Shown: positions 1,180 through 63,985 of the stretch, piece after piece
Layout of the letters: each line of letters opens with the position of its first letter
Position numbering within the stretch: the first letter of the stretch is position 1
Notes under the pieces: model-generated
What the model was told of the DNA's origin: nothing
The model's database searches: none
Seen by the model: the letters and a program-made list of their open reading frames with translations, nothing else
Source of the DNA: Phycisphaerales bacterium
Lineage (GTDB): Bacteria; Planctomycetota; Phycisphaerae; Phycisphaerales; SM1A02
NCBI GenBank assembly: GCA_029260575.1
Contig: JAJDDB010000003.1
Span: 62,001-126,000 of the forward strand
Direction of reading: 5' to 3'
Length of the DNA: 64,000 nt
Translations under genes and position numbers: made by a program

Positions 1180-1194
1180 CTATTGTGGCCCACT

Positions 1195-5575: not shown

Positions 5576-6769
5576 TCAAAAAAGCAGCTCGGTAATGGCA
5601 TCTGCGACCAGTTCGTACTGCTGCGGCCGGTTGTAAATCTGACACGATGCCCTGATCCACCACCGCCCATTCCAGTCGATGATCGGAACTTCGATCTGCC
5701 AGCGATCCCACAACTCTCGCTGCAACTGCATCGGCTCTTCGTACCTGGGCGGAATCTCCGGCAGCGCAACCGTGGTCATCGAACCGATCATCGAACCATC
5801 CAGCGGCGTCGTCGGCGGCACACCCCACCGCTGCGTCCACAGTTGCTGCACCCATGTCGCAAGTTCATGATTGTGTCCGCGCACGGCCTTCCAGCTGAAC
5901 CGCTCGAAATACGACAGCGCTTCATCCACGCATAACCACGGCGAAATGTCGCGCGTTCCCTGCCAGTTGAATTCAGCAACGAAACCTTCATCCATGAAGT
6001 GACTAATGACCGGCGGGTGGATCCCCAGCTGCCGATCCGGCCGAGCCCACAGAAACGCAGCCCCCGGCGGCGCGCTGACCCACTTGTGCAGGTTGCCCGC
6101 ATACCACGATGGGTTCAACGCTTCGATGTCGACATCAAGCATGCCCGGCGCATGCGCACCGTCGACGAGCACTGCTATGTCCTGCTGCTCGCATAAGGCT
6201 ATCAACTGTTTGATGGGAAATACGACAGCAGTCGGCGACGTGACGTGATCAACGATCAACATTCGTGTACGCGCCGTGAGAGCAGCATGAATCGCATCCA
6301 TGATCTGTGCAGAACTGTGCAGTGGAAACGGAACCGGAACTTCTCTGAAAGTTGCACCCCGTTCACGCGCGACCAGTTCCAGCGTGCGTCGAACCGCGTT
6401 GTAGACATGTGTCGTCGTGAGTATTTCATCACCCGGATCAAACTGCGTCGATCGCAATACAGCATTGATCCCGGCGGTGGCGTTGGTCACAAACGCCAGA
6501 TTATCTACGCTGGCCTTGAGGAAGCCTCCCAGACGTGTGCGTGCCTGCTGTATGAGACCATCTCGGTGACGATCGAGATATTCAATCGGGCTGGCCTCGA
6601 ATTCATGTCGCCTGTGAATCTGAGCTTCCAGGACACTTCTGGGTCGCGCACCAAAGCAGCCGTGATTCAGAAAGACGATTTCCGGATCAAGCATCCACTG
6701 TGCTGTGATGTCATCCTGAAGCGGCTCAGGCGGGCTGACGCCCTCAGATGCAGTATGACTTGAATTCAT
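5576..6769 (-). CDS. Class V aminotransferase, isopenicillin N epimerase-like
   Basis: A 397-residue PLP enzyme of the aminotransferase class V fold. Visible landmarks are FLNHGCFGARPRSVLEAQ near residue 32 (typical of the isopenicillin N epimerase-like branch), the cofactor Asp in VLVDGAHAPGM, and the PLP-binding Lys in AGNLHKWVSAP. Family members are amino-acid epimerases, cysteine desulfurase/lyase-like enzymes and kynureninase relatives, so the reaction cannot be named. The full family length is present and no export signal is seen. ATG 6769 begins a polar N-terminus ahead of the conserved fold. It stands alone on the minus strand and its 3' end faces the hairpin at 5305. Confidence 0.88.
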   Translation of the reverse strand: MNSSHTASEGVSPPEPLQDDITAQWMLDPEIVFLNHGCFGARPRSVLEAQIHRRHEFEASPIEYLDRHRDGLIQQARTRLGGFLKASVDNLAFVTNATAGINAVLRSTQFDPGDEILTTTHVYNAVRRTLELVARERGATFREVPVPFPLHSSAQIMDAIHAALTARTRMLIVDHVTSPTAVVFPIKQLIALCEQQDIAVLVDGAHAPGMLDVDIEALNPSWYAGNLHKWVSAPPGAAFLWARPDRQLGIHPPVISHFMDEGFVAEFNWQGTRDISPWLCVDEALSYFERFSWKAVRGHNHELATWVQQLWTQRWGVPPTTPLDGSMIGSMTTVALPEIPPRYEEPMQLQRELWDRWQIEVPIIDWNGRWWIRASCQIYNRPQQYELVADAITELLF

Positions 6770-7645
6770 GGTTGGAGCGTATACGTGCCGCTGCTGGACT
6801 GCCAGAGCGATACGGGGGTACGCATCTCAACTTTTCCCGAACATGGGCCGGAACAATTCTGCGTCTCGCAATGTTCAGCCAACGCAGAACTCATTTCTGG
6901 CAGCAACGGAAAATTCTCAACTCGATCTTGCTATACGGACGATGTTCGGGTAACGTAGACCAAACGGATTCGCGCCACAAATGTGGAGGTCGCGTGTCGC
7001 ACCGGTCGAGATGCTCAGACCGAACAACGAGAGTCCACCAGATGTTGGGGACACTCCAAGCGGCAACACGACTTGAGGTAGCCATGAACGACGCACTGGT
7101 AAAGCTTGGGCCCGGCGGGACGTATCAAACGCACTATCTGCCCTCTGAAAGCAGAAACCTTGCTGTTCAGACCGGCAAATCGAGTCAGGAATCGTCATCT
7201 GACAGTCGTCAGCAACAACAGCACAAGTCACACGACGCCAGCAGTACCGCAGCAATCCTCCCGATGCATCGAATCAGGCTCGGCGGCACGCTTCTGGCCA
7301 GATTCTTCGGCATCGACTGCGTTGAAATCAGCGACGCAGCACTGAACCAGGACCGCAATGCCGAACGATGCCTCCCAGCGCGCGTTGACCGGCCAATTCC
7401 CTCACGCGCGACTGTGAGCGATCCGCAAAACGCCTTGGCAGCCTGGTTGCAAAGTCAGCGTAACACGATCGAACATGTCTTGAATCACTTCGAGGCATTG
7501 ACGCGCAGACTTCAGCGCATCATCCCCACCGCAGACTCTCAACGCCCGGCATACGTATACGCGTCTGCCAGCATCTCTCCCGAACAACAGTCATCAACCA
7601 ATGTTCCAACCATGAAGTCGGACATGTCCGGACTGGAGAATCGAC
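6770..7645. other. 876-base stretch without a confident gene
   Basis: A plus-strand frame is open from 6748 to 7851 and would give 367 residues. It overlaps the start of the aminotransferase gene and runs 200 bases into lexA in another frame. Its composition (many Arg, Gln, Ser, Thr) has no recognisable domain. The piece from ATG 7082 to about 7600 is the most protein-like, with one amphipathic helix (NALAAWLQSQRNTIEHVLNH). Minus-strand frames are short. A small unrecognised gene is possible, but I would not call one. Confidence 0.4.
7619..7630. promoter_or_regulatory. Candidate LexA operator before lexA
   Basis: CGGACATGTCCG is a perfect 12-base palindrome ending 15 bases before the lexA start codon. 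LexA repressors usually bind a palindrome in their own promoter. This site is not the proteobacterial CTG-N10-CAG box nor the GAAC-N4-GTTC box, so the assignment rests on position and symmetry only. Confidence 0.35.
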
Positions 7646-8260
7646 ATGAATCTCACGCCGAAGCAACTGAAGATCCTCAAACTGATACGCGAATCACGCA
7701 TCACGCGCGGCTATTCCCCGACGATGCAGGAACTCGCAGACGAACTCGGCATCAGCAAGGTCACGGTGTTCGAGCACGTCGAAGCGCTCATCAAAAAAGG
7801 CGCGCTGCATCGCGAACCCAACAAAGCCCGCTCTTTGTCAATTGCGGATAATGCACTCATTCCCGACGAGACGCGTTCGCTGACTTTCCCTCTGGTTGGC
7901 AAGATTGCGGCCGGCTATCCCATTCAGCGCTTCGAGCAGTCAGACGAGTTGGACCTGGAAAGCGTATTCGGTCCACGTGTTGGCCAGAAGGCGGGAACCT
8001 TTGCGCTTCGTGTCGATGGTGATTCCATGCGCGATGAAGGTATTCTCGACAGCGATTACGTGATCGTAGAGCGCCGCGAAACAGCACGCAACGGCGAACG
8101 TGTTGTAGCGCTACTTCCCAATGGCGAAACAACGCTCAAGACCTTCTACAAAGAAGGCGGACAGATTCGACTGCAGCCGGCCAATCCGAACTTTGATCCG
8201 ATTATTGTAAAAAGCTGCACGATCCAAGGTGTCGTTATCGGAGTTATGCGACGATACTGA
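7646..8260 (+). CDS. lexA: LexA-type SOS repressor
   Basis: A 204-residue LexA-type repressor of the DNA-damage response. Residues 1-65 form the winged helix (LTPKQLKILKLIRESRITRG, TMQELADELGISKVTVFEHV). The C-terminal part is an S24 self-cleaving protease: the Ala-Gly cleavage site lies in GKIAAGYPIQ, the nucleophile Ser in GDSMRDEGI, and the general-base Lys in GETTLKTFYKEG. All elements are intact and the length is normal. ATG 7646 has GGAG about 9 bases upstream. Family knowledge: RecA filaments trigger self-cleavage, which derepresses repair genes. It probably represses itself, and the palindrome at 7619 is a candidate site. No other SOS gene is adjacent. Bases 8261-8508 downstream show no gene. 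Confidence 0.93.
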   Translation: MNLTPKQLKILKLIRESRITRGYSPTMQELADELGISKVTVFEHVEALIKKGALHREPNKARSLSIADNALIPDETRSLTFPLVGKIAAGYPIQRFEQSDELDLESVFGPRVGQKAGTFALRVDGDSMRDEGILDSDYVIVERRETARNGERVVALLPNGETTLKTFYKEGGQIRLQPANPNFDPIIVKSCTIQGVVIGVMRRY

Positions 8261-8508
8261 GTTCGATCAGACGACGATCCGTTGTGTTAAACGTACCGTG
8301 CGATCACTTGCGCAAAGTGATTGCTCTTGCGTGTCGGTTATGACTTCCGTGAGAGCGAAGTCGTGTTCAGTCTGACTGTCGGAGCTTGATAAGCAGTACG
8401 ACAAGTCCGACCAGCACGAGTCCACCGACGATGTAAATTCAAGTTGGCATAACGATTTCGCATTGGGTGCTCTCAAAGCCCGCACACGAACGGCAACCGG
8501 TTCCACGA

Positions 8509-9675
8509 TCAGTTTGACTTTCGCTGCCCGCGAAGTTCAACACCGACATGATTGCGTTTGAGTTGGCCGCGCATCTCCAGCATCGTCAGTTCCGCCATAA
8601 GACTGCTTATTGCAATGCCGCATCGCCGTGCCAGTTCATCGATTGGAATCGCTTTTCCTGCATCTTGCAGTGAGTCTACGATAATTTGCTGCACGTCAGA
8701 CGCTTGCGGTGCATCAACGCGCCCATCGGCATTTTGTGCGCCTCGTCCTGATGCTTCGATGGCGCCACGAACCAAGTGACCTGCGGATTCCAGTTGATGC
8801 AGCACATCCGTCGGCGAGGTTACGAGACCGGCCCACCCCTCGCGAATTGCCCCGAGACATCCGGTTGACGCTGGCGAGTCGACTCGGCCGGGAAGGGCCA
8901 TGACCTCGCGGCCATGCTGCTCGGCGGCAAGACGAGCGGTGATCAACGCACCACTGCGCTGCGCCGCCTCCACCACAAGCACGCCGACACTTAATCCGGA
9001 GATAACTCGATTGCGACGAGGAAAATGCTCGGCGCGAGGTTCTGCGGACATCGGAAACTCGCTCAGCAACACACTGCCAGCGTTTACGATCTGTTCGAAG
9101 AGCTCGCGATGTTCCGGAGGATAGCTGCGACTCAGTCCGCAGCCCATGACTGCGATCGTTCGTCCGCCTGCCCGAAGTGCGCCCCGATGGGCTTCGCCAT
9201 CGATGCCAAGCGCACCACCGGACACAATTGTGTATCCGCATTGCCCGAGCAATGATGCAAACCGGGCAGCTTGTTCGCGACCGTACGAGGTGCAGCGTCG
9301 AGATCCGACCACGCCAACCGCTGCGTTGTCTTCGTCAGAAAGTGCGCCCCGAATCCACAGTGCAACTGGCGGATCTGGTATCGACGATAGAAGTGATGGA
9401 TAATCTGCATCGCCCGTTATGATCAACGAAGCACCACACTCATGCATCATGTCGAGTTCGTGTTGCGGGTCACTCTCATCGATCGAATGGCGCAACGCGG
9501 CAGCAGTTTTGTTCGCGATTCCGTCAATCAAAGTGAACTCACGAACACTCGCACCAACAATGCGGTCGTCGGTGTCGAAATGGTTCCGAAGCTTTCGAAG
9601 TGTTGCCGGCCCGATGCCTGACGCAAGTAGTACACGTAACGTCGAATCGGAGATCTTGTCAGGTGTCTGCGGCAC
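8509..9675 (-). CDS. dprA: DNA processing protein DprA
   Basis: A 388-residue DprA, which loads RecA on incoming single-stranded DNA during natural transformation. An N-terminal helix-hairpin-helix-like region (ASGIGPATLRKLRNHF) precedes the Rossmann-fold core with VGVVGSRRCTSYGREQA, IVSGGALGIDGEAHRGAL and FPRRNRVISGLSVGVLVVEA. A winged-helix DprA C-terminal domain (IPIDELARRCGIAISSLMAE) ends the protein. All family motifs are present. The start is GTG 9675, with GGAGG six bases upstream. No other competence genes are in the window; planctomycetes often carry dprA without known competence. The neighbour upstream, ending at 9821, is unrelated. Confidence 0.95.
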   Translation of the reverse strand: MPQTPDKISDSTLRVLLASGIGPATLRKLRNHFDTDDRIVGASVREFTLIDGIANKTAAALRHSIDESDPQHELDMMHECGASLIITGDADYPSLLSSIPDPPVALWIRGALSDEDNAAVGVVGSRRCTSYGREQAARFASLLGQCGYTIVSGGALGIDGEAHRGALRAGGRTIAVMGCGLSRSYPPEHRELFEQIVNAGSVLLSEFPMSAEPRAEHFPRRNRVISGLSVGVLVVEAAQRSGALITARLAAEQHGREVMALPGRVDSPASTGCLGAIREGWAGLVTSPTDVLHQLESAGHLVRGAIEASGRGAQNADGRVDAPQASDVQQIIVDSLQDAGKAIPIDELARRCGIAISSLMAELTMLEMRGQLKRNHVGVELRGQRKSN

Positions 9676-9820
9676 TTCGTCCCTCCGAGCTGTTCTCGCA
9701 AGGGTAAAGCAATTTCGGCAGAAGGTGTACCGCAGACATCTGGGAAACCGCGCTTACATCCGACAAGAGCCGCCCTCAACCGAGTCGCCGCGTCCGCAAC
9801 TACATACCTGAACAAAGTAC

Positions 9821-52082: not shown

Positions 52083-53618
52083 CTACTCGCCGACAACGGA
52101 AGACGACGCAGTCTCCTGCGCCTGAGCGCTCAATGCTGGATAATCCGTCTTGCCGTTGCGCGTCTTGGGCAGTTGTTCCAGAATCAGAAATCGCCTCGGC
52201 TGCATATATGGTGACATTGTTTCGCGCGCGTATGCCTGAACCTTATTCCTGATATTTTCGACACTCTCCTTGGCGACAAGCGCTGCCCAGACTTCATCAC
52301 CAAGCATGTCATGTTTCATGCCAAAGACTGCAACTTCACGGACAAGTCCTGATGCGTGAATCAGTTCTTCAACCTCAGCAGGAGACACGCGCACGCCCAT
52401 CGATTTTAGTTGATGATCGCGCCGCCCACGGAAATAGAGAAATCCATCTGCATCGAGCATTCCGTAATCACCGGTGAATAGCACCGGTCTCCCGACCGCG
52501 CCTTGCGGCAGCGTCGGATCGCGTCGAAGTGCTTTTGCTGAGGCTTCAGGATTGTTCCAATAGCCGAGAAACACAAAGTCGCCACGATGGGCAATCTCAC
52601 CTTCCTCGCCGACATCAGCGAGTGACCCGTCATCTCGCACGATGACAATGTCAACACCGGGAATCGGTTTGCCGATTGAATCGGGACGTTCACGAACCAA
52701 TTTCGGATCCAGAAAACTGCTTCGATAGGTTTCTGTCAGGCCGTAATTCAGAAACAGTTGCGCATCTGGAAACAATGACAGCAATTCGTTCAGTACCGGC
52801 CCCGGGATTGTGCCGCCGGTATTCATAAGAATCCGAAATGATCCGATCTTCGATTCTCTGAACGGTGAAAGTCCCTGCAGCAAATACGTGTATAAAGAAG
52901 GAATACCCGCAAGCACAGTCGGTTGGTGTGCATCGATTGCTGCGCAGATAGCAAACGGGTTCGATACCTCCGGCAGCACCTGTGTCACGCCCAGCACAAC
53001 AGTACTCAACAACTGGCCGTATCCATAATCGAATGCCCAGGGCACACCGCACAGAATTCGATCGTCAGCCAGAAGCCCGAGATACTCTCCAACCGAACAG
53101 CAACCTGCAATCAGATTGCCGTGCGACTGCGTCGCGCCTTTCGGCTTGCCGGTTGACCCGGAGGTGAACACGATAGACGCTGGATCGGTTGAAACGATGC
53201 GCGGAGCCTCCATCGCTGACTGTCCGGTGTGCGGAATGTCACTCGGCCGAAGCACGGGTACAGATTGGCTGACATTCGAATCCAGATTCTCAACATTGCT
53301 CAGAATCGCCTTGGGGGACGTCAGCTCCAAAGCATGTTCGACGTGCGGCCAGTGTTCATCAGCAACCATGAGAACCGCAATCCCGCCAAGCGCCCATATG
53401 CCAACGATCGCTGCGGCCATCTCAAGTCCCGGAGTCATCAGGAGCAGGACGCGCGCGCTGACATCGACGTCTTGTGTGTCGCGCAAGGCAATCGAATAAT
53501 CGATAGCTCGATTGCGCAACTCGGCGAATGTGATCGCGCGATCCCCATGCAGCAGCGCGATTCGTTCCGGACCGGTGTTGACGGTCCGATTGAATGCTTC
53601 CCACAGATTCGCAGTCAT
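52083..53618 (-). CDS. AMP-forming acyl/aminoacyl ligase (DltA-like role)
   Basis: A 511-residue ANL-superfamily adenylating enzyme. The phosphate loop is IVFTSGSTGKPKGATQSHGN, LNYGLTETYRSSF is motif A5, TGDYGMLDADGFLYFRGRRD is the hinge region, and the catalytic C-terminal Lys is in PKTRNGKTDYPAL. Enzymes of this type activate a carboxylic or amino acid with ATP and load it on a carrier protein or CoA. The carrier gene in the operon makes thioester loading likely. The family resembles both DltA-type ligases and ligases found with exosortase systems. It is the last gene of the operon, and ATG 53618 overlaps the sulfotransferase stop by 4 bases (ATGA). Confidence 0.88.
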   Translation of the reverse strand: MTANLWEAFNRTVNTGPERIALLHGDRAITFAELRNRAIDYSIALRDTQDVDVSARVLLLMTPGLEMAAAIVGIWALGGIAVLMVADEHWPHVEHALELTSPKAILSNVENLDSNVSQSVPVLRPSDIPHTGQSAMEAPRIVSTDPASIVFTSGSTGKPKGATQSHGNLIAGCCSVGEYLGLLADDRILCGVPWAFDYGYGQLLSTVVLGVTQVLPEVSNPFAICAAIDAHQPTVLAGIPSLYTYLLQGLSPFRESKIGSFRILMNTGGTIPGPVLNELLSLFPDAQLFLNYGLTETYRSSFLDPKLVRERPDSIGKPIPGVDIVIVRDDGSLADVGEEGEIAHRGDFVFLGYWNNPEASAKALRRDPTLPQGAVGRPVLFTGDYGMLDADGFLYFRGRRDHQLKSMGVRVSPAEVEELIHASGLVREVAVFGMKHDMLGDEVWAALVAKESVENIRNKVQAYARETMSPYMQPRRFLILEQLPKTRNGKTDYPALSAQAQETASSSVVGE

Positions 53619-54559
53619 TTCGAATCGCTCTTGCCCATCTGCATTGACATCTTCGCAACCATTCGACTGAGTTCTTCTTGCCGCTTGGAGTCCGCAGCAC
53701 GTTCTCCAGCACCACGAACCTCGACCGTTTCATATCCCAGCAACTCTAGCGTGGGATTAGTGATCTGCGCCAGCCGGTCAATGACATCAGTTGGAAGATT
53801 TTTCCATTGATCGACGCTGCCCGACTCAATCGAACGAGTCTTATACGTCTTCCAGTCACCAAGCCCTGCGCTGTCCGTGGCACTGAGCGCGCAACGGAGC
53901 ACCTCGTCAACATCAACCGGCCTGTCGAGAAACGCAAAGATCCGGCTAAGCACATCCTCCGGCGCAACGACAAGATCTTCGTACTTGAATAGTGCGCAAT
54001 CCGCACGATTGGTCTCCATAAACGTGTTCAAACGCTGGTTCACATTCACCCACGCGTGGGCAAACGCCTCCAGCGGCGCTGGATACCGCTTCACGTATTC
54101 GTGCAGCTCCGGAAGATACATCCCCATCTTATCTGTAAGTTGCTTGGTCGAGCAGCACACATCCAATCCATGACGAGTCAGACAGATGAACCGACAGTGC
54201 CCGGCACAGATTCGTTCGATCGCATCGAGGTGAAATGTATCGAACGCTGTTTTCTCTGCCCAGATGCTCTTGCCTGAACGATCGCGAATGTCTCTGAAGA
54301 ACGAAAACACAAACTCACGCAGCCGTTGAAGTATTGTCGTCTCGTCCAAACCACTGAAATCGAGACCCGGTACGACGCCGACACTGAGATTGCCCGCAAA
54401 TCGATGCTCTTCAAGAAACCTCGATGCAGCGTTCAGTAGATTCGTTTCCGGCGGACAGTGAATGTCCGGATGCGCATTCAACAGCCGTCGCAACAACGTC
54501 GTACCGCTGCGCGGCGCGCCAAGTACGACAATGCCTTCGTACGCCCATTGTTCAGACAT
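53615..54559 (-). CDS. Sulfotransferase within the Dlt-like operon
   Basis: A 314-residue PAPS-dependent sulfotransferase. The phosphosulfate loop is GIVVLGAPRSGTTLLRRLL and the 3'-phosphate motif is CRFICLTRHGLDVCCS; LFKYEDLVVAPEDVLSRIFA is the conserved C-terminal element. It lacks the TPRs of the sulfotransferase at 1195. No signal peptide or membrane helix is present, so it acts in the cytoplasm. Its start ATG 54559 overlaps the decarboxylase stop by 8 bases and its stop overlaps the ligase start by 4, so it is translationally coupled to both. It probably sulfates the group being built or the acceptor precursor. Confidence 0.87.
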   Translation of the reverse strand: MSEQWAYEGIVVLGAPRSGTTLLRRLLNAHPDIHCPPETNLLNAASRFLEEHRFAGNLSVGVVPGLDFSGLDETTILQRLREFVFSFFRDIRDRSGKSIWAEKTAFDTFHLDAIERICAGHCRFICLTRHGLDVCCSTKQLTDKMGMYLPELHEYVKRYPAPLEAFAHAWVNVNQRLNTFMETNRADCALFKYEDLVVAPEDVLSRIFAFLDRPVDVDEVLRCALSATDSAGLGDWKTYKTRSIESGSVDQWKNLPTDVIDRLAQITNPTLELLGYETVEVRGAGERAADSKRQEELSRMVAKMSMQMGKSDSK

Positions 54560-55820
54560 GTTGAGTCTCGTGCATCCAGACATCACGCATCGGTTCGGTC
54601 ACATCAACGCATTGAACGTTCAAGCCATCAACGGTGACCAGTACTTCTCGCGGAATCGGTTGGCTGATGAAACGAATCGGACTCGATGACATTCCATACG
54701 CGCCTGAAGAACCGATTGCGATCGCATCACCACGTGAAAGTTTCGGTAACTCGAGGTCATCTGCGAGTGTGTCGATCGTCGTGCATAAAGGGCCGGTCAA
54801 CATGTACGTCTCGCGTGCTGCGTTCATATCACCATCGATGTTCCAGATCGGCCAGTTGCGCCGAATGATTGTGCCCATCATTCCCCACGCTGCAAGGTGC
54901 CCGTTGAAACCCGTATCAAGCAAACGAATGTTTTTTCCTCGGCTGCGTTTTTGAGCGATGACAGACGAAACGAGATATCCCTCCGGCCCGATCAGATACC
55001 GCCCCATCTCCAGCATGCACTTGGCGTCCGCCAATCGGTCGTTGCGCCGCATGTCATCAATCAATGGATTGATCAGCCGTGCAACTTGCGCAAGATCAAG
55101 CGTGTCATCACCGTCGTGATAGGGAATTCCGAAACCGGAACCGAAAATCAACTTGTGCGGGTGAATGTCCGCCGCTTCGGAAAATCGAGTGAATAAATCG
55201 ATGAAGATCGAGAAATTCTCCGCCAGAGCTTCGGCATTCAGACAGTTTGTTCCCGAGTAGATGTGAAAGCCTCGCAGCGCCAGGTTCGGCCAGGTATCGA
55301 GCTGGCCGAGCACTGTTGGCATGTCCTCTTCATCAATACCGAACTGACTTGGCTTGCCGGCCATATTCACGCCGAAATGCCGCGGCGCTGTGGCCGGGTT
55401 GATGCGCAGAAATATCGGCATCGTCACACCGGAGGCCGAAGCAAGTTCATTGAGCATATCAAGCTCATTTGGCGACTCGACGACCATCTCGCCGCATCCT
55501 ACTCGCACAGCAAGTTCCAACTCTTCTCGACTTTTCGCCGGCCCGGAGAATGTTACACGATCTGCTGGATGCCCCGCATCAAGCGCCCGCTGCAGTTCAC
55601 CGCCGGACGACACATCGAGAGTGTCCACGTGCGATGAAAAGCGCTTCAGCAATTCGCGATTAGGATTGCTCTTCACTGCATAACTGATGCCGAATCGACC
55701 GTCGAACGCATCGCGCACCCGGGCGATATTACTGAGCATTCGATCCAGAAAGTAGACGTAGCTCGGCGTGCCGAACTCGGTCCTGACCTGACGCAGAACT
55801 GATTGTATCTGTGCATTCAT
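54552..55820 (-). CDS. Fold-III PLP decarboxylase (Orn/Lys/DAP type)
   Basis: A 422-residue enzyme of the alanine racemase-like fold. The PLP Lys is in GISYAVKSNPNREL, and other landmarks are TLDVSSGGELQRALDAG, FHIYSGTNCLNAEA, FGSGFGIPYHDGDD and the C-terminal catalytic Cys in GPLCTTIDTLADDL. Family members are diaminopimelate, ornithine, lysine, arginine and carboxynorspermidine decarboxylases. The sequence recalls the decarboxylases that accompany exosortase systems. A diacid substrate would leave a carboxyl for the ligase to activate. It lies 5 bases after the carrier-protein gene and is coupled to the sulfotransferase gene. Confidence 0.9.
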   Translation of the reverse strand: MNAQIQSVLRQVRTEFGTPSYVYFLDRMLSNIARVRDAFDGRFGISYAVKSNPNRELLKRFSSHVDTLDVSSGGELQRALDAGHPADRVTFSGPAKSREELELAVRVGCGEMVVESPNELDMLNELASASGVTMPIFLRINPATAPRHFGVNMAGKPSQFGIDEEDMPTVLGQLDTWPNLALRGFHIYSGTNCLNAEALAENFSIFIDLFTRFSEAADIHPHKLIFGSGFGIPYHDGDDTLDLAQVARLINPLIDDMRRNDRLADAKCMLEMGRYLIGPEGYLVSSVIAQKRSRGKNIRLLDTGFNGHLAAWGMMGTIIRRNWPIWNIDGDMNAARETYMLTGPLCTTIDTLADDLELPKLSRGDAIAIGSSGAYGMSSSPIRFISQPIPREVLVTVDGLNVQCVDVTEPMRDVWMHETQHV

Positions 55821-55825
55821 AGCGA

Positions 55826-56077
55826 TCAGTTCGATCCGTTCTGTTTGCGGTCGACGTACGTCAGTATTCGGTCAATACTGTCCATATTGTCAAGGTTGAC
55901 TTCAACTGGACTCACGCGGAACGAGCATTGTTTCTCGATGAAAGTAATCAACGTCACCAGCGCGAATGAATCAATGATTCCCGAGCTGAACAACTCGGTC
56001 TCACGGCTGATGTCTGCGGTGTCCACGCCCAATTCCGTATCCAGGAACTGGACCAATTCGTCATGCGTTAAGGCCAT
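55826..56077 (-). CDS. Acyl carrier protein (DltC-like role)
   Basis: An 83-residue carrier protein. The phosphopantetheine Ser is in LFSSGIIDSFALVTLITFIE, and the four-helix pattern is normal. It is acidic except for the C-terminus (DRILTYVDRKQNGSN). ATG 56077 has GGAG 9 bases upstream; the frame upstream to 56158 is not protein-like. The gene stands between the MBOAT and decarboxylase genes. It would hold the activated acyl or aminoacyl group as a thioester for the MBOAT protein. Confidence 0.92.
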   Translation of the reverse strand: MALTHDELVQFLDTELGVDTADISRETELFSSGIIDSFALVTLITFIEKQCSFRVSPVEVNLDNMDSIDRILTYVDRKQNGSN

Positions 56078-56170
56078 CGTGCCAGTCTCCAGAGCGCCTG
56101 AATGCGCTTTCCCCAAGTACAAGGTGCATGATAGCGGTCTGCTGCAGGGGTGACACACCGCTGGCTCGGA

Positions 56171-57397
56171 TCACCACTCCGGAAGGTTGATTGTCGCCAG
56201 CTTTGCAAGCATCCGAAGAGCGTCGTAACCATTTCCATCAGGATAATTCGAGGTGAGCGCGGCCCCGATAGAGACGACCACGAAGGTCAGTCCGATCGCC
56301 GGAACGCGAACCCAGAATCGATCGGTCGAACGCCACTTCCGCTTCCGTCGGAATTTCAGCCACTGCAGGTACATGGTCACCAGCGTGGCATGATAAAGCC
56401 CCCACATCACCCAGACCGTTGAACCCGCATGCCAGAGTCCCATCACAAGAAACGTGCTGTAAACAGCGACATACGGATTTCGAGTCAAACCAATCATCGG
56501 CAGATACACATACGCCTGGCACCACCCTGCAAGAGTCATATGCCATCGCTTCCAGAACTCGCCAATGTTTGACGCCAGGATCGGCCAGTTAAAATTCTCC
56601 ATGATCCGGATGCCGAACAATCGCGACACACCAATAGCGATGTCCGAGTAGGCCGAAAAATCCATGTACGCAATGAGATACGTCAGAATACAGTACCCCC
56701 ACATTGCGTATGTGGGCAGCTCGTCAAGTCGTGCGAGCACTGCGTCGGCTGTCGTATAGCTTTGTAATTGCGGCCGCAGAATCATCTTGGCGATGACGAA
56801 CTGTTTGATCAGGCCACTCATGATTCGCATCACACCTTCGGCGGTCATCTGCGCCGACCAGTGCGACTCTAAGTTGTTCTGAAAGTGGTCGTACCGCTCG
56901 ATCGGGCCGGCGGTAAAGACCGGAAACAGGAACATGTAGCATGCAAACTGCTGCAGTGATCGCTGTTTGATATTTCCGCGACCAACTTCAACCGCGTAGT
57001 GAATGAGTTTGAACGTGTAGTAACTGATGCCCATCGGCAACGCGATACGCAGCGCCAGACTATCGCCCGCAAGTACCTGCAACACCGGTGCGACATACTT
57101 GAAACAGATCAAAACAAAAAGCACACACAGAATCAGAACTGGCGTAATCCATTTCACTTTCTTCGGATTTGCGACAACCTTCGGCGCCAGCCAATAGAAC
57201 AATGCCACCCATACCGTCAGCATCGGAATGACAAATGCGTTGCCTACCCCTGAATCCACATACAGATGAACCGTGAACCAGAAGACGTACAACCACGATA
57301 CAACGGCCAACAGGCCGTAGCGGATCGCCCGAGGCGTCAGCCAGAACAGCAGCAGCGATCCCGCAACCACAATCCAGAATGTCCCTGTTTGAATCAT
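56171..57397 (-). CDS. MBOAT-family membrane O-acyltransferase (DltB/AlgI-like)
   Basis: A 408-residue protein with about ten helices. Conserved parts are PMGISYYTFKLIHYAVEVGR, FPVFTAGPIERYDHFQNNLE, IGEFWKRWHMTLAGW and the catalytic-site pattern GLWHAGSTVWVMWGLYHA with two His. Family members such as DltB take an acyl group from a cytoplasmic carrier and pass it across the membrane to an extracellular acceptor. The usual WHG is WHA here. It lies 18 bases after the microprotein gene and before the carrier gene. Confidence 0.93.
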   Translation of the reverse strand: MIQTGTFWIVVAGSLLLFWLTPRAIRYGLLAVVSWLYVFWFTVHLYVDSGVGNAFVIPMLTVWVALFYWLAPKVVANPKKVKWITPVLILCVLFVLICFKYVAPVLQVLAGDSLALRIALPMGISYYTFKLIHYAVEVGRGNIKQRSLQQFACYMFLFPVFTAGPIERYDHFQNNLESHWSAQMTAEGVMRIMSGLIKQFVIAKMILRPQLQSYTTADAVLARLDELPTYAMWGYCILTYLIAYMDFSAYSDIAIGVSRLFGIRIMENFNWPILASNIGEFWKRWHMTLAGWCQAYVYLPMIGLTRNPYVAVYSTFLVMGLWHAGSTVWVMWGLYHATLVTMYLQWLKFRRKRKWRSTDRFWVRVPAIGLTFVVVSIGAALTSNYPDGNGYDALRMLAKLATINLPEW

Positions 57398-57415
57398 TGG
57401 CGCCGGCCGAAGAGC

Positions 57416-57544
57416 TCAGAATCCCTGATATCGAAAAACCGTCGAACCTGTACTGACACCTATCAGATTGACCAACGCAATAAATAACAGGATACCCATG
57501 ACAACTGCCTGTGTGAGCACGCCAAGTATTCGTGCATACTTCAT
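57416..57544 (-). CDS. DltX-like 42-residue membrane microprotein
   Basis: ATG 57544 to TGA 57416 encodes MKYARILGVLTQAVVMGILL, then FIALVNLIGVSTG, ending STVFRYQGF. It has a short basic N-terminus, one transmembrane helix (about residues 8-30) and a C-terminal FxYxxF (FRYQGF). DltX proteins of teichoic-acid D-alanylation are of this size and end in the same pattern (FIYNEF type), and their Tyr is reported to carry the acyl group between DltB and DltD. The position between the DltD-like and DltB-like genes supports the match. The ribosome site is weak (GGTGA). It is too short for routine gene calling. Confidence 0.8.
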   Translation of the reverse strand: MKYARILGVLTQAVVMGILLFIALVNLIGVSTGSTVFRYQGF

Positions 57545-57622
57545 GCTTTCACCATGTACTGCAGAACCATCTGCGCGGTGGCTCGGAGACGGCATGCACC
57601 TGGCACAACAACCCGCCGTGTA

Positions 57623-58723
57623 TCAACGCGATTCATTGTCTGTCTCCAGAAGTACCGCAGCCAGGTGATCGGTCAGGACGTTTGCGAAACGCCTGCGAGC
57701 ATCGGGACTGTTGACGTGAACCGCATCGTCAAACTCATCTCGAGTGAGTGATGCGGTCTCGCCGATATTCAAATATTCGACATTATGCTGCACGGCAAAG
57801 TTTCGTATGTCAGTGTCATATTCCATTCGAATTGCCTCAGGCAGAAGTTCAGCCGCGCGAGGATTCGTGACACCGTTCAGCAGCACAACATTCGCACCTC
57901 TGCTGCGCGCTCGTTCGACAAGTCGCTGCATTGTTCCGTAATTCGGCTCTTTGAATTGAGCATACTGACTTCGATAGCGCAGCCATTCAGCAATATAGTT
58001 TGACCATTTTGCTTCGGGCAATGGTTTGCGATGCACATTATGTCGCGCAACCGTCACCGGCCCGGAAATCAGATTCCGAAGTGCGGTTACGCGCGCGAGG
58101 AAAAACCCAACGTGATCGATGCTGTATACGCCCGTTCGACGGGGAACTTCCAGTCCAGCAGCGTGAAGCTCTTCGTCAAATGCCTGACTCGTGAATCCAA
58201 GACGCGGGTGGTCCGCAAGTTCCTCAAGTCGTGAACGCGGCTGGCTCAGGTGAAACATGCTTGTTCCAACGACATAGATCACGCGACGCTCGACATTAAG
58301 AAAGTCGATCGTGGCCAACTCTTCCCAGATCGTTGTTCCGCCGGCTGTCAGATCAACGACGTCTACGCGATATCCCGTTTTCTCATGAAGCATGTCTGCG
58401 ATGACATCCTCCGTTGGTATCGCATGCTGAATCGAGGACGCACCGAGTATGACCACCAGCGGTTCACTCGACAGTTCCTGACGCAACTGAAGCGCCCTGC
58501 CGGTCAAGTATCCATACTGGTCGCGGGAATCGACCATGATCATGGCTGGACCTGCCCGGGCAATCAGATCAGGCTGCAGCAGCAGTAACGAAGTTACAAA
58601 CAGACTGAGCGTCACTAGCAACGCCCCCGCCGCCCCGGCAACACTTGGTCGGCTTACAGATCGCCAGTACGTCGCAGCGAACGCATTTACAGCCGAAGGT
58701 CTGGATGGTGACTCACGAACCAA
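57623..58723 (-). CDS. DltD-like SGNH-fold membrane-anchored protein
   Basis: A 366-residue protein with one N-terminal helix (AAGALLVTLSLFVTSLLLLQ) and an extracellular SGNH/GDSL-type domain. The nucleophile Ser is in VVILGASSIQHAIP, GGTTIWEELA may supply an oxyanion residue, and the C-terminal DDAVHVN gives the Asp-x-x-His of the triad. DltD has this layout and places the acyl group on the polymer. No in-frame ATG exists before the helix; the start is TTG 58723, with TGAGG upstream. It is the first gene of the seven-gene operon. Sequence similarity to true DltD is not obvious, so the match is by fold and neighbours. Confidence 0.82.
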   Translation of the reverse strand: MVRESPSRPSAVNAFAATYWRSVSRPSVAGAAGALLVTLSLFVTSLLLLQPDLIARAGPAMIMVDSRDQYGYLTGRALQLRQELSSEPLVVILGASSIQHAIPTEDVIADMLHEKTGYRVDVVDLTAGGTTIWEELATIDFLNVERRVIYVVGTSMFHLSQPRSRLEELADHPRLGFTSQAFDEELHAAGLEVPRRTGVYSIDHVGFFLARVTALRNLISGPVTVARHNVHRKPLPEAKWSNYIAEWLRYRSQYAQFKEPNYGTMQRLVERARSRGANVVLLNGVTNPRAAELLPEAIRMEYDTDIRNFAVQHNVEYLNIGETASLTRDEFDDAVHVNSPDARRRFANVLTDHLAAVLLETDNESR

Positions 58724-58842: not shown

Positions 58843-59394
58843 TCACCCCTCAAGATCGGTTCGCACCGGCGTCGAGCCGACAGATTTTGTCCCCTCCGGC
58901 TTCTCGATTTCAATCCACCACTGCGCATCGACCGGCAACGGATTCGGCGCGATTGCATGAACGTCATAGTCGTCATGCGATGGCGCATACGTGCCAAGCC
59001 CGACCATGGACATCGTTCGATCTTCACCGCCGATCCATGCACGAATCGTCGTTGCACCGCTGTCCGAATACGGCAGTTTCACGACGAGATGTCCTTCTTT
59101 GCCGGCTTCCACCGCTCCGTGCCCCTGCGCAAGTTCTACCTCCATGTCGTCAATCGTGATACTGCCCAGCGACACTTCATCGTGAGCATGTCCGCCTCCA
59201 TTTTTCGCAACATCGTCGCCGTCGGCATCATCATGATCCGCATGCGTTGATCCAGCATCGTGCATATGCACATCACCAGAAGGCGAAACGTCATTGGTCG
59301 ACGTTGACTCCGGCTCTTCCGTCTTTGTGCATCCATACAGCAGTGCAATGGTCACAACTGAGACCGCAAGTGCGAGTGTTTTGAATACATGCAT
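58843..59394 (-). CDS. His-rich lipoprotein of the RND metal efflux cluster
   Basis: A 183-residue lipoprotein: MHVFKTLALAVSVVTIALLY then GC. A His/Asp-rich linker (HMHDAGSTHADHDDADGDD, GGGHAHDE) probably binds metal. The following domain (VELAQGHGAVEAGKEGHLVV, TTIRAWIGGEDRTMSMVGLG) is a small beta domain often seen encoded beside CzcA-like pumps. ATG 59394 is the natural start. It lies 73 bases after the pump gene on the same strand. A periplasmic metal-binding accessory is the likely role. Confidence 0.8.
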   Translation of the reverse strand: MHVFKTLALAVSVVTIALLYGCTKTEEPESTSTNDVSPSGDVHMHDAGSTHADHDDADGDDVAKNGGGHAHDEVSLGSITIDDMEVELAQGHGAVEAGKEGHLVVKLPYSDSGATTIRAWIGGEDRTMSMVGLGTYAPSHDDYDVHAIAPNPLPVDAQWWIEIEKPEGTKSVGSTPVRTDLEG

Positions 59395-59467
59395 GTTTTA
59401 ATCTCCTGACTGATTCGAGTCTGTAAGTGTATTGAAAGATGCCCGGCTGAGAATTTCATTGCGATTC

Positions 59468-62400
59468 TCATTCGGGTGAATTGCGATGAATTGCTGCATA
59501 CCCTGCGGGAACCACAACAAGATTGAGGAATGTGGATGTCAGTAAGCCGCCGAGTATCACCACAGAGAGCGGCGCGAGAATCTCGTTACCCGGTTTGTCG
59601 CCCTTGAGAATGATCGGTATCAGCGCCAGCGCCGCCGTCAACGCCGTCATGAGAATCGGCACGAGTCGTTCCATCGAACCCTGCACGATCGCTTCGTGCA
59701 TCGGCTTGCCTTCCACAGTCATAAGGTGTCCATAATGATTGACAAGCAGGATGCCGTTGCGGACTGCAATGCCGAACAACGTGATGAAACCAACCATGCT
59801 TGCTATGGAGATCACCGGCGCAACATACGTTCCGCCAAGACCTACAAGCGCCACCAGGTTGCCGAACACATTCGGCGACTCCGTAAGAAAGATCGCCAAA
59901 ATCCCGCCTATAAGCGCCAGTGGAAGATTGACAAGCACAAGTAGCGCCACCCGTAACGATCCGATCGCCACGTGTAACAAGACGAGCATGAACAGCACAA
60001 CCAGCCCGCTGAAAAGCGCGATCGTTCGACTGGCAGACTGCTGCGCTTCGAACTGCCCGCCGTAATCCACAAGGTACCCGTGCCGCAGGACAATCGGGTC
60101 CACAACCGCCTGCACTTGCTGCACAAGATGGCCGAGATTCGAACCCTCGGCGACATTCAGTGACACAACAGCCTTGCGCTGCGCGTTCTCGCGGGCAATC
60201 AGGTTGGATGCGAGTTCCGGTCCGATGTCTGCCACTTCTTCCAGTCGCACCAGCGCCCCGCCCCTGCCGCGCAGAATCAGATGCCGCAGATCGCGAATGC
60301 TGTCGCGCTCCGCTGAGACAAGGCGCACCGCAAGCGCATAGCGCCGCACGCCCTGGTTCACCTCTGCCACTTCCACTCCGAAGATGGCATTGCGCACCTG
60401 TTCCGCCGCTGCCTGCGGTGTCAGTCCGTACGCTGCAAGATCCTGCGGTCGATACTCCACTGGCAGCGACAGGATCATCACTTCACGGTTGGCTGCGACA
60501 TCCCGTGCGCCGGGCAGCGCTTTCAGTTCCTGTTCTATCTCCTTGGCAATCGTGCGCAGCACTGCCAGATCATCGCCATACACGCTGATAGCGATCGCTG
60601 CGGGGGTTCCCGAGAGAATGTGGCTGAGTCGATGTTCGATCGGCTGGCCGACACTCGTCGTCACGCCGGGAACACTTTCAAGAATCTCGGTTATCGCATT
60701 GCGAACATCGACCTTCTCAAATCCCTCTTGGACTGTCACCTCAATTTCCGAGTTGCTCACGGGCTCGGCATGTTCATCGCGTTCAGCACGACCGGTCCGC
60801 CTGGTCACGCTTCTGACACCGTCCACCGCGAGCAGCTGCTTCTCCATCGATGATGCCATTCGATCGCTTGCCTGAAGCGATGTGCCCGGAGGCGCGCTTA
60901 GAAAGACTGTAAACGTACCTTCATTGAACTCCGGCAGAAATGATGTCCCGAACGTCGAACCTAGCCAGAGCGTCAGAACAGTCGCCCCCGCTGCCGCACC
61001 AAGAACCGACTTTCGAAAACGAATCGCAAGCCGAAGCGCCGGTTCGTAGAGATTCTTCATCCACCGCACCAGCAGTCCGTCACGTGCTTCACCTTTTGTC
61101 GGCTTGGAATGCAGCATGATCCGGCACATCGCAGGTGTCACCGTTAATGACACAGCAAGCGACGCAAGTATTGAAACAATGAACGCAATGCCCAAAGGTC
61201 GGAAGAACCGTCCTTCTATACCTTGAAGAAAGAACAACGGCAGAAACACCATGGCAATGATGATCGTCGCGAACACGATTGACGGCATTATTTCGACGAT
61301 TGCTGCGAACACCACATCGGATTTCGATTGACGCGCAGCTTCCGGCTTTACAGCGTTCTCGCGCAGCCGCCGAAACGCATTTTCCATACCGATGATCGCA
61401 TCATCCACCAGGCTGCCTACCGCAATGGCAAGCCCGCCCAGTGTCATCACATTGACTGAGAGATCCATCCAGCTCAGCACGAGCATCGCAACAGCAAGTG
61501 ACAGCGGAATGGCGACCAACGTGATAAATGTCGTTCGAATGTTGAGCAGAAACAGAATCAGGATAATCGTGACAATGATTGCTGCATCGCGCAGCGCATG
61601 TACGACATTGTCCACAGAGAACTGAATGAATTCCGACTGCCGAAACACATGGCGATTAACCTCAATGCCCTCAGGAAGCGTCGGCTCAATTGCATCCAGC
61701 GCCTTGTCAATGTCGTCGGTAATCACCAGTGTATTCGTACCCGGCGCCTTTTGAATGGTCAGAACCACCGCGCGGTCACCATTGTGTGCGCCTGTACCAC
61801 GCTTCAGGGCCGGCCCCAGTTGCACCTGCGCAACCTGTCCGATTGTCACCGGGCTCCCCTCGTGATATTTGATCACCGTTCCCGAAATGTCTGCGACCGT
61901 GCGCACACGCCCACTCTGACGAATCGGCAACTCAAGACTGTCCACATCCGGCAGATAGCCTGCGCTTAACGTGCTGTGTGATTGCGCCGCAGCATCCACA
62001 ACATCCTGCACGGACAAATCAAACAGTCGCAGCTTTTCCTGCTCAACCAGAACCTGATACTCCGGCAACTCGCCGCCGATGACTGCAACTTGCGACACAC
62101 CGGGAATCGCGAGCAGCTTGTTTCGAAGATCGAATTCAGCAAAGGCGCGCAGGTCCAGATCACGAACCGTCCCGCTCGGCGAGGACACTGCAAGCAACAT
62201 GATCTCGCCGGTGATGGATGAGATCGGCGTCATCTCCGCATGCGCATCAGGCGGCAGATCTTCACGAATGGTGTCCAGCCGTTCTGCTACAAGCTGGCGG
62301 GCCCGGTATATGTCCGTACCCCAGTCGAATTCGACATAGGCAATCGACAAACCAATTGCGCTTGACGTTCGAACACGACGAACACCGGGAATGCCGTTGA

Positions 62401-62617
62401 CCGACGTCTCGATCGGAAACGTCACGTACTGTTCAACTTCGTCTGCTGCGAGGCCCGGTGATTCAGTCATGACCACGACCGTCGGCGCGTTGAGTTCCGG
62501 AAACACATCAACAGGCATGCGTGACAGTTCAAACCCGGCAACGATCAACAACACGCCGGCGAGCACCAGTACAAGCGTCGAATGGCTCAGCGAGAATCGA
62601 ATCAGTCGTTGTAACAT
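59468..62617 (-). CDS. CzcA/CusA-type RND efflux pump
   Basis: A 1049-residue RND transporter with two sets of helices and two large periplasmic domains. Landmarks are MPVDVFPELNAPTVVVMTES, GLAADEVEQYVTFPIETSVN, the TM4 charge motif GSLVDDAIIGMENAFRRL and the C-terminal SMVGFITLFGIAVRNGILLV. The full length fits the heavy-metal (HME) group, which exports divalent or monovalent metal ions by proton antiport. The metal is not readable. It lies 15 bases after the adaptor gene; no outer-membrane partner gene is in view on this side. Confidence 0.94.
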   Translation of the reverse strand: MLQRLIRFSLSHSTLVLVLAGVLLIVAGFELSRMPVDVFPELNAPTVVVMTESPGLAADEVEQYVTFPIETSVNGIPGVRRVRTSSAIGLSIAYVEFDWGTDIYRARQLVAERLDTIREDLPPDAHAEMTPISSITGEIMLLAVSSPSGTVRDLDLRAFAEFDLRNKLLAIPGVSQVAVIGGELPEYQVLVEQEKLRLFDLSVQDVVDAAAQSHSTLSAGYLPDVDSLELPIRQSGRVRTVADISGTVIKYHEGSPVTIGQVAQVQLGPALKRGTGAHNGDRAVVLTIQKAPGTNTLVITDDIDKALDAIEPTLPEGIEVNRHVFRQSEFIQFSVDNVVHALRDAAIIVTIILILFLLNIRTTFITLVAIPLSLAVAMLVLSWMDLSVNVMTLGGLAIAVGSLVDDAIIGMENAFRRLRENAVKPEAARQSKSDVVFAAIVEIMPSIVFATIIIAMVFLPLFFLQGIEGRFFRPLGIAFIVSILASLAVSLTVTPAMCRIMLHSKPTKGEARDGLLVRWMKNLYEPALRLAIRFRKSVLGAAAGATVLTLWLGSTFGTSFLPEFNEGTFTVFLSAPPGTSLQASDRMASSMEKQLLAVDGVRSVTRRTGRAERDEHAEPVSNSEIEVTVQEGFEKVDVRNAITEILESVPGVTTSVGQPIEHRLSHILSGTPAAIAISVYGDDLAVLRTIAKEIEQELKALPGARDVAANREVMILSLPVEYRPQDLAAYGLTPQAAAEQVRNAIFGVEVAEVNQGVRRYALAVRLVSAERDSIRDLRHLILRGRGGALVRLEEVADIGPELASNLIARENAQRKAVVSLNVAEGSNLGHLVQQVQAVVDPIVLRHGYLVDYGGQFEAQQSASRTIALFSGLVVLFMLVLLHVAIGSLRVALLVLVNLPLALIGGILAIFLTESPNVFGNLVALVGLGGTYVAPVISIASMVGFITLFGIAVRNGILLVNHYGHLMTVEGKPMHEAIVQGSMERLVPILMTALTAALALIPIILKGDKPGNEILAPLSVVILGGLLTSTFLNLVVVPAGYAAIHRNSPE

Positions 62618-62632
62618 CAGATTGATCCCTTT

Positions 62633-63985
62633 TCACTCTTCATTATGGAACGTGCCATCAGCATGGAAATGCCCGCCCTTCTGGCTGGTGCCATTTTGCT
62701 GCGTTGCCAGTTTCAATTCGTACGCCCCGTCGAGAACGACTTCATCGTTGAGCATGAGCCCGCTGTTGATTGCGACCCATCTGCCATCGCTGACGCCCAT
62801 GTCAGCTTCAACACGGATGGCTTTGTTCGGATCATCCGGGTCACGCCGAAACAGCACATGCACAAGGCCGTCTTTCACAATTGCAGATCGCGGGATAGCC
62901 AGTGCTACGTTGTCCGTTGACTGCACAACGACTTCAAGAAATGCAGATACGCCGGGCCGCGTCCACGGCCGATGTTCTGCGGGCGTGGCAAGCAGGTTCA
63001 CTGTCCGTTGATCAGGATCGGCTTCAAGACCGAGCGTCAACGTTGCCGGTACGGCGTCGTTGATCGCCTGCCCGGGCGACTGAGGTGGAACGATGCGCGC
63101 CGACGCATCATTGGTAAACAGGAGCAGATCGCTTTGCAGTCCCATTGCCCGAAAACGCACACGTTTCGGGTCAACTGTTGTGAGTACAATCGAAGGCGGC
63201 ACGGCATACGCACCATCAGTCATCTGTAACGACTCAACAACGCCTGGCTGTGTTGCGAAAACCTCGACATGCCTGATCGTCTGGTACCTCGGCACCGACT
63301 TCCCGTGGACGGTCGTAGGTGTTGCCAGAGTTGCTTCGTCAATGCCGGTCGCCACCGCAGCACGATGCAGCGCGTGTTCGCGCGTCCGTTCCGCATTTGC
63401 AAGTTTCGTCTCGGCAAGCCGCAGTTCAGCATCCAGACGCGGCAGGCTTGCCTTGATCTCAGCGGCTTGCGATTCCAATTCGGCCAGTCTGAATTCCGCT
63501 GATGCCAGCGCATCGATTCGCTCATCGAGCAAAGTCAGTTGCGACTGCGCTTCAATTATCTTCTCTTTCGCAACCGCAATTTCAGCGCGACTCGATTCGA
63601 TGTCCTGCTCACCGATGATTATTTCGTGTTGCAGTTCCGGCCATTGCGGTGATGTGAATCGATACAGCAGATCACCAGGCTCCACCTCGTCGTACTGATC
63701 CACCAGCAACTCCACGCGTCCCGGCAGCGTGATTCGATACTCATGCCTGGCCAGCGGCTGCAGTTCAAACGCGCCGGGCACACGAACGGTATTGGCAACC
63801 GCCCGGCGCTCGACCTTCGCGAACGTAATGCCAAGGTTGCTGCGCACAGTCGGCGGAATGTCAATTCGGTTGGTCTGCGCTTCTTCAGCAGTCTCATCAG
63901 TCAAACCGGCATGCTCGTCATCACCTGACGTGCACGCAGGAAGTATGAGAAACAGTGCGCACAAGAGTACATACATGAGTTTCAT
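62633..63985 (-). CDS. RND periplasmic adaptor (CzcB-like), lipoprotein
   Basis: A 450-residue membrane-fusion protein with lipobox LFLILPAC. The lipoyl half (RITLPGRVELLVDQYDEVEP), a coiled-coil hairpin (about residues 125-205), another lipoyl half and a barrel (VVQSTDNVALAIPRSAIVKD) follow in family order. The end is His-containing (QKGGHFHADGTFHNEE), as in metal-efflux adaptors. ATG 63985 has GAGGTG six bases upstream. The pump gene follows directly. An outer-membrane channel gene may lie just outside the window. Confidence 0.92.
   Translation of the reverse strand: MKLMYVLLCALFLILPACTSGDDEHAGLTDETAEEAQTNRIDIPPTVRSNLGITFAKVERRAVANTVRVPGAFELQPLARHEYRITLPGRVELLVDQYDEVEPGDLLYRFTSPQWPELQHEIIIGEQDIESSRAEIAVAKEKIIEAQSQLTLLDERIDALASAEFRLAELESQAAEIKASLPRLDAELRLAETKLANAERTREHALHRAAVATGIDEATLATPTTVHGKSVPRYQTIRHVEVFATQPGVVESLQMTDGAYAVPPSIVLTTVDPKRVRFRAMGLQSDLLLFTNDASARIVPPQSPGQAINDAVPATLTLGLEADPDQRTVNLLATPAEHRPWTRPGVSAFLEVVVQSTDNVALAIPRSAIVKDGLVHVLFRRDPDDPNKAIRVEADMGVSDGRWVAINSGLMLNDEVVLDGAYELKLATQQNGTSQKGGHFHADGTFHNEE

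Follow-up and report, generated by a model that had tools for sequence, protein, structure and literature searches.

The 64,000-nucleotide stretch of contig JAJDDB010000003.1 from a Phycisphaerales bacterium analyzed here (hereafter, the window) carries on its minus strand, at 52083–58723, seven genes encoding, in 5'–3' order, an SGNH protein, a microprotein, an MBOAT acyltransferase, a carrier protein, a pyridoxal phosphate (PLP) decarboxylase, a sulfotransferase and an AMP-forming ligase. These genes probably encode a complete Dlt-like machine for surface aminoacylation with a different donor branch, in which Asp or Glu would be converted to a carrier-bound β-alanyl or γ-aminobutyryl (GABA) group and passed through Tyr39 of the microprotein to the cell surface. 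The original prediction had listed this gene set on a single strand with short gaps or overlaps; all genes were found at the coordinates given, and domain searches agreed with the identities proposed. The genes present are in keeping with the planctomycete host considered probable there. Its central claim, a Dlt-like acyl-transfer machine, is supported by the presence of the microprotein at every related locus, by the MBOAT having only DltB among its relatives in the PDB (1e-42), and by the retrieval of DltD with the SGNH structure model.

To define the family, whole-genome searches were performed with the MBOAT as a query. They revealed ten related loci, nine in other genomes and one as a second copy in the same genome (56% identical). 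The loci lie in genomes of the same order and of the same phylum, and in genomes drawn from the phyla to which a Myxococcales and a Pseudomonas record belong; the operon type is sporadic outside the known Dlt lineages. Among plasmid records, the MBOAT gave weak matches and the sulfotransferase none. A contig scan with the MBOAT alignment yielded fused MBOATs only, which were used as a control set.

The microprotein, which ends in FRYQGF, is the only short open reading frame (ORF) with an FxYxxF end in the window, and control loci totaling 2.58 million strand-bases contained no transmembrane (TM) short ORF with this terminus. Its frame and tyrosine are kept in 11/11 loci (the window and the ten related ones), always as a single-TM protein of approximately 42–50 residues; the C-terminus reads FxYxxF in ten of them and FQYQGW in one, and Gln12, Gly33, Phe37 and Tyr39 are invariant. 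The 42-residue protein singled out by the original prediction is thereby borne out, and none of the ten related loci lacks the frame or the tyrosine, a loss which that prediction had named as grounds for its rejection. Between the window copy and its paralogue in the same genome, codon positions 1, 2 and 3 differ at 13, 8 and 28 sites over 43 codons, and this third-position excess indicates selection on the microprotein as a protein. It is a real gene, beyond chance occurrence. The DltX model (PF12459) matched none of the seven members scanned, a model whose reach is limited, as one genuine DltX scores 33.7 bits and another is missed. Comparison of the microprotein profile with the fused MBOAT tails and DltX by hhalign detected no significant whole-length homology; the link to acyl shuttles is therefore based on the motif, the size, the topology and the partner genes.

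The highest-scoring family model for the MBOAT was DltB TIGR04091 (173.8 bits, 6e-51), under its 375-bit cut-off. A maximum-likelihood tree of 52 sequences resolved three groups, namely the window MBOAT family (support 100/99), DltB (100/100) and the fused MBOATs (87/68); the tree is unrooted and does not give the closest pair among them. Judged by this phylogeny, the window family is a third clade, distinct from DltB and from the common fused MBOATs, so that the proposed DltB counterpart holds for DltB-like function and for the structural match, but not for membership in DltB. The catalytic histidine (H323) is kept in 52/52 sequences, and both histidines (H286/H323) are present in all. Beyond the catalytic histidine, fused MBOATs extend for 153 residues, the window family for 84 and DltB for 63. 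A C-terminal FxYxxF motif was found in 31/31 fused MBOATs and is missing from both the split window family and DltB, which implies that in the window family, as in Dlt, the shuttle is a separate gene. The acyl-tyrosine shuttle itself is established for DltX and PatA (PMC12148441).

For the SGNH protein, the structure model (predicted local distance difference test, pLDDT, 88) was searched against the PDB with Foldseek, and the first eight matches were DltD. VIA-align superposed the model on DltD with Z 14.7 over 270 residues (root-mean-square deviation 4.7); small SGNH hydrolases such as TesA reached an equal Z, with a coverage of only about 170 residues. Sequence-family models hardly recognize the protein and gave no match to DltD; the likeness is one of fold. 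The only invariant columns among 10 SGNH homologs are G94, S96, P288, D333 and H336. At the sequence level, the residues expected of an acyl-tyrosine shuttle system are thus all kept: the MBOAT histidine in 52/52, the microprotein tyrosine in 11/11, and SGNH S96/D333/H336 in 10/10.

With Dlt (DltXABCD, teichoic acid D-alanylation), the window system shares a ligase, a carrier, an MBOAT without a fused tail, an FxYxxF microprotein and a DltD-like SGNH protein. The DltB and DltD matches might accordingly be read as a true D-alanylation operon acquired from Gram-positive bacteria, an explanation already disfavored and to which we assign a very small probability: the MBOAT branches outside DltB, the microprotein lacks a DltX match although a real DltX gives one, and the ligase is VinN-like, with DltA models scoring 145–159 bits against cut-offs of 476–560. 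The system further differs from Dlt by an added BtrK-like decarboxylase and sulfotransferase, and it is not confined to Gram-positive bacteria. As its sequences do not qualify as DltB, DltA or DltX, it is a Dlt-like variant and not Dlt.

The donor enzymes resemble those that make β- and γ-aminoacyl-carriers rather than DltA, which supports the earlier proposal that the acyl group is not D-alanine. BtrK acts on glutamate bound as a thioester to its carrier, BtrI, and decarboxylates it to GABA-BtrI (PMC7857480). VinN attaches 3-methylaspartate to the carrier VinL, and VinO then decarboxylates the bound amino acid to yield a β-aminoacyl-carrier (PMC11284099). The window decarboxylase has BtrK as its nearest solved structure (211 bits versus 145 for the next enzyme) and bears the marks of the BtrK/VinO type, with the PLP lysine and the motif GPLCT. 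Over its core domain, the ligase is nearest to VinN (160 bits versus 118 for the next enzyme). Its D197, T267 and R299 align with VinN D230, S299 and R331 (the numbering offset of the PDB chain is 16 at all three), so that the Asp and Arg are kept and the Ser is conservatively changed to Thr. The roles proposed for these residues in VinN are recognition of the α-amino group by Asp230 and of the α-carboxyl by Ser299/Arg331 (PMC7756342). In the other two ligases that occur with a decarboxylase, the three positions are Asp, Ser and Arg, while the ligases of loci without a decarboxylase miss one or more of them. A glutamate mutase E subunit was not found in the 95%-complete assembly, and 3-methylaspartate was disfavored as a substrate on this ground, leaving Asp favored over it. 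Together, the BtrK- and VinN-like enzymes, the kept Asp and Arg and the lack of the mutase make β-alanine from Asp probably the first guess for the acyl group, with GABA as the second.

We therefore envisage the following route only as a prediction from these similarities. The VinN-like ligase would take an acidic amino acid (L-Asp being the likeliest), adenylate its distal carboxyl and load it on the carrier phosphopantetheine. The BtrK-like decarboxylase would then strip the free α-carboxyl on the carrier, leaving β-alanyl-carrier (or GABA if the substrate is Glu). By analogy with Dlt and PatA, the MBOAT would pass the ω-aminoacyl group across the membrane via His323 to Tyr39 of the microprotein, whose tail would deliver it to SGNH Ser96 for esterification of a surface glycan, the presumed acceptor, adding positive charge. 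The sulfotransferase would sulfate a glycan precursor or a carrier-bound intermediate in the same pathway.

Comparison of the related loci (designated by L numbers) revealed a varied donor side. The carriers at 10/11 loci are orthologous members of one conserved family, regardless of the type of ligase. A VinN-like ligase accompanied by the decarboxylase occurs in the window, L139 and L134; L034, L135 and L136 have a ligase resembling adenylation (A) domains; L035 has a TIGR03098-type ligase and lacks the decarboxylase; and in L036, GNAT acetyltransferase and short-chain dehydrogenase/reductase (SDR) genes lie between carrier and ligase (6328–9702). L133 (4305–10228) represents a different donor chemistry, with an aminoacyl-tRNA synthetase (aaRS)-like amino acid:carrier ligase, an AurF-like N-oxygenase and a sulfotransferase beside a carrier–MBOAT–microprotein–SGNH set. 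The seven-gene set of L139, in a genome drawn from the Pseudomonas phylum, is complete and has its modules in reverse order relative to the window, carrier–decarboxylase–sulfotransferase–ligase preceding SGNH–microprotein–MBOAT. The single carrier family, the varying charging enzymes and the reversed order in L139 suggest a fixed transfer module combined with a plug-in donor module.

The same variety bears on two alternative explanations of the donor genes. The carrier may be charged with an ordinary α-amino acid of the D-Ala or Gly kind, the same transfer machine being used and the decarboxylase making an unrelated free metabolite; the A-domain-like ligases of several loci, the aaRS-like enzyme of L133 and the use of D-Ala by Dlt itself all point that way. 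We regard this as unlikely, since the decarboxylase gene is separated by 5 nt from that of the carrier and overlaps that of the sulfotransferase, its product is nearest to the carrier-specific BtrK, and it co-occurs with ligases keeping the VinN Asp and Arg. More improbable still is that the ligase, carrier and decarboxylase belong to an exosortase-A-like or natural-product pathway and are no more than neighbors of the MBOAT module. Its basis is that the exosortase-A cassette models are the best-scoring families for both enzymes, TIGR03099 for the decarboxylase (353 bits, cut-off 478) and TIGR03098 for the ligase (369 bits, cut-off 592); against it, the carrier belongs to one orthologous family irrespective of the ligase, and the trio and the transferase module occur together again in other phyla, in both orders.

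Several observations weigh against an omega-aminoacyl donor branch feeding the Dlt-like machine. The exosortase-A models just named, nearest to the ligase and decarboxylase, are without assigned function. The ligase resembles VinN to a moderate degree, and specificity codes read from single residues can be misleading. The decarboxylase is present in only 3/11 loci, and no glycan genes adjoin the operon. Carrier, ligase and decarboxylase genes were not found in the vicinity of the second SGNH–microprotein–MBOAT set of the same genome (L033, 9279–11707 in G000:C2:54000-73000), which may share the donor of the window operon or use another. Finally, L137 (G598:C297, from a Myxococcota sample), where two ligase genes and a patatin gene adjoin a broken MBOAT frame, contains no FxYxxF ORF; it was excluded from the family count because of the broken frame.

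The sulfotransferase is cytosolic, as neither its sequence nor its model contains an N-terminal signal or TM segment, and it carries an invariant PRSG.T loop for 3'-phosphoadenosine 5'-phosphosulfate (PAPS). Its close relatives were detected in 2/294 genomes of the phylum, both of which have this locus; where the enzyme occurs in four further genomes, the best match lies at this locus and the only other match is far weaker. On this distribution, it is a dedicated partner of the system. It is found at 5/11 loci, including L133, L135 and L136, where the decarboxylase is absent, and so cannot alone define the acyl group. Of the two enzymes that the original prediction had taken as clues to that group, the decarboxylase does bear on it, but the sulfotransferase is not specific. 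The closest folds are tyrosylprotein sulfotransferases (TPST) and the CurM and olefin-synthase sulfotransferase domains. The latter domains act on acyl carrier protein (ACP)-bound chains, which, with the strict tie to the system, would fit a transferred group bearing a sulfo group placed on the carrier-bound acyl chain. This has a low probability in our view, considering that the enzyme is missing from 6/11 loci, that TPST is the closer fold, and that a simple β-alanyl group has no hydroxyl to sulfate. The sulfotransferase may sulfate the acceptor glycan precursor. A second Sulfotransfer_3 protein, fused to TPR repeats, is encoded outside the operon at window 1183–2733.

Among other known systems, PatA/PatB and further fused MBOAT–SGNH acyltransferases share the MBOAT and SGNH chemistry and a C-terminal FxYxxF tyrosine shuttle (PMC12148441), whereas the window operon has a gene of its own for the shuttle and a carrier protein as donor. 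Non-Dlt pathways have been stated to lack both of these features (PMC12148441), so a separate clade with a DltX-like microprotein and a carrier donor outside Dlt would make the split shuttle more general than the published view. The VinN/VinL/VinO and BtrI/BtrK systems likewise have a free-standing ACP and a fold-III decarboxylase, with an AMP-ligase in the VinN system; the known ones feed polyketides or aminoglycosides rather than a membrane acyltransferase. Glycine addition to Vibrio cholerae lipopolysaccharide and the Bordetella dra locus, compared by description only, are also Dlt-related aminoacylations of Gram-negative surfaces, and we know of no decarboxylase or sulfotransferase partner for either. 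The exosortase-A cassette (TIGR03098/TIGR03099) supplies the nearest named families of the window ligase and decarboxylase, which score under the curated cut-offs. The nearness of the genes at window 52083–55820 to these families suggests that this cassette may also make an ω-aminoacyl-carrier, a candidate function for its unexplained ligase and decarboxylase.

No earlier report of this system, or of ω-amino acids as a surface modification, was found in the open-licence literature. A broader reading, which we put forward tentatively as having somewhat less than an even chance, is that of a third MBOAT–SGNH lineage with a free-standing tyrosine shuttle in several phyla, in which the donor module (VinN/BtrK-type, nonribosomal peptide synthetase-type or aaRS-like) would set the aminoacyl group displayed; here, β-alanyl or GABA groups together with sulfation would give a zwitterionic polymer. 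Exchangeable donor modules would make the tyrosine shuttle a general export route for aminoacyl groups. With seven genes and one tyrosine, the operon offers a clean system for in vitro work, in which ω-amino acids are testable as a surface modification.

The genes are listed in Table 1. In transcription order, the intergenic distances are 78, 18, 93, 5, −8 and −4 nt; the starts used after trimming are 56077 for the carrier, 57544 for the microprotein and 54559 for the sulfotransferase.

Table 1. Genes of the Dlt-like operon in the window, in order of transcription.
Predicted product	Position	Strand	Supporting features
SGNH, DltD-like putative periplasmic transferase, N-terminal TM, TTG start	57623..58723	-	triad S96, D333, H336; GDSL 1e-4
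42-aa single-TM microprotein, DltX-like putative acyl shuttle, ends FRYQGF, Tyr39	57416..57544	-	conserved frame and Tyr
MBOAT, DltB-like, without fused C-terminal shuttle, predicted catalytic His323	56171..57397	-	MBOAT model 1e-22
Acyl/aminoacyl carrier protein, phosphopantetheine Ser37	55826..56077	-	PP-binding 4.8e-6
Fold-III PLP decarboxylase, BtrK-like, PLP Lys50, motif GPLCT	54552..55820	-	Orn_Arg_deC_N 5e-34
Cytosolic PAPS sulfotransferase	53615..54559	-	Sulfotransfer_3 5e-25
AMP-forming aminoacyl:carrier ligase, VinN-like, D197/T267/R299	52083..53618	-	AMP-binding 2e-62

Rfam and tRNA scans gave zero matches, and promoters and terminators were no more frequent than expected by chance. 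The region upstream of the operon (window 58843–63985, same strand) encodes an RND efflux pump (ACR_tran), an apparent adaptor and a His/Asp-rich lipoprotein-like protein, a set with the look of metal efflux.

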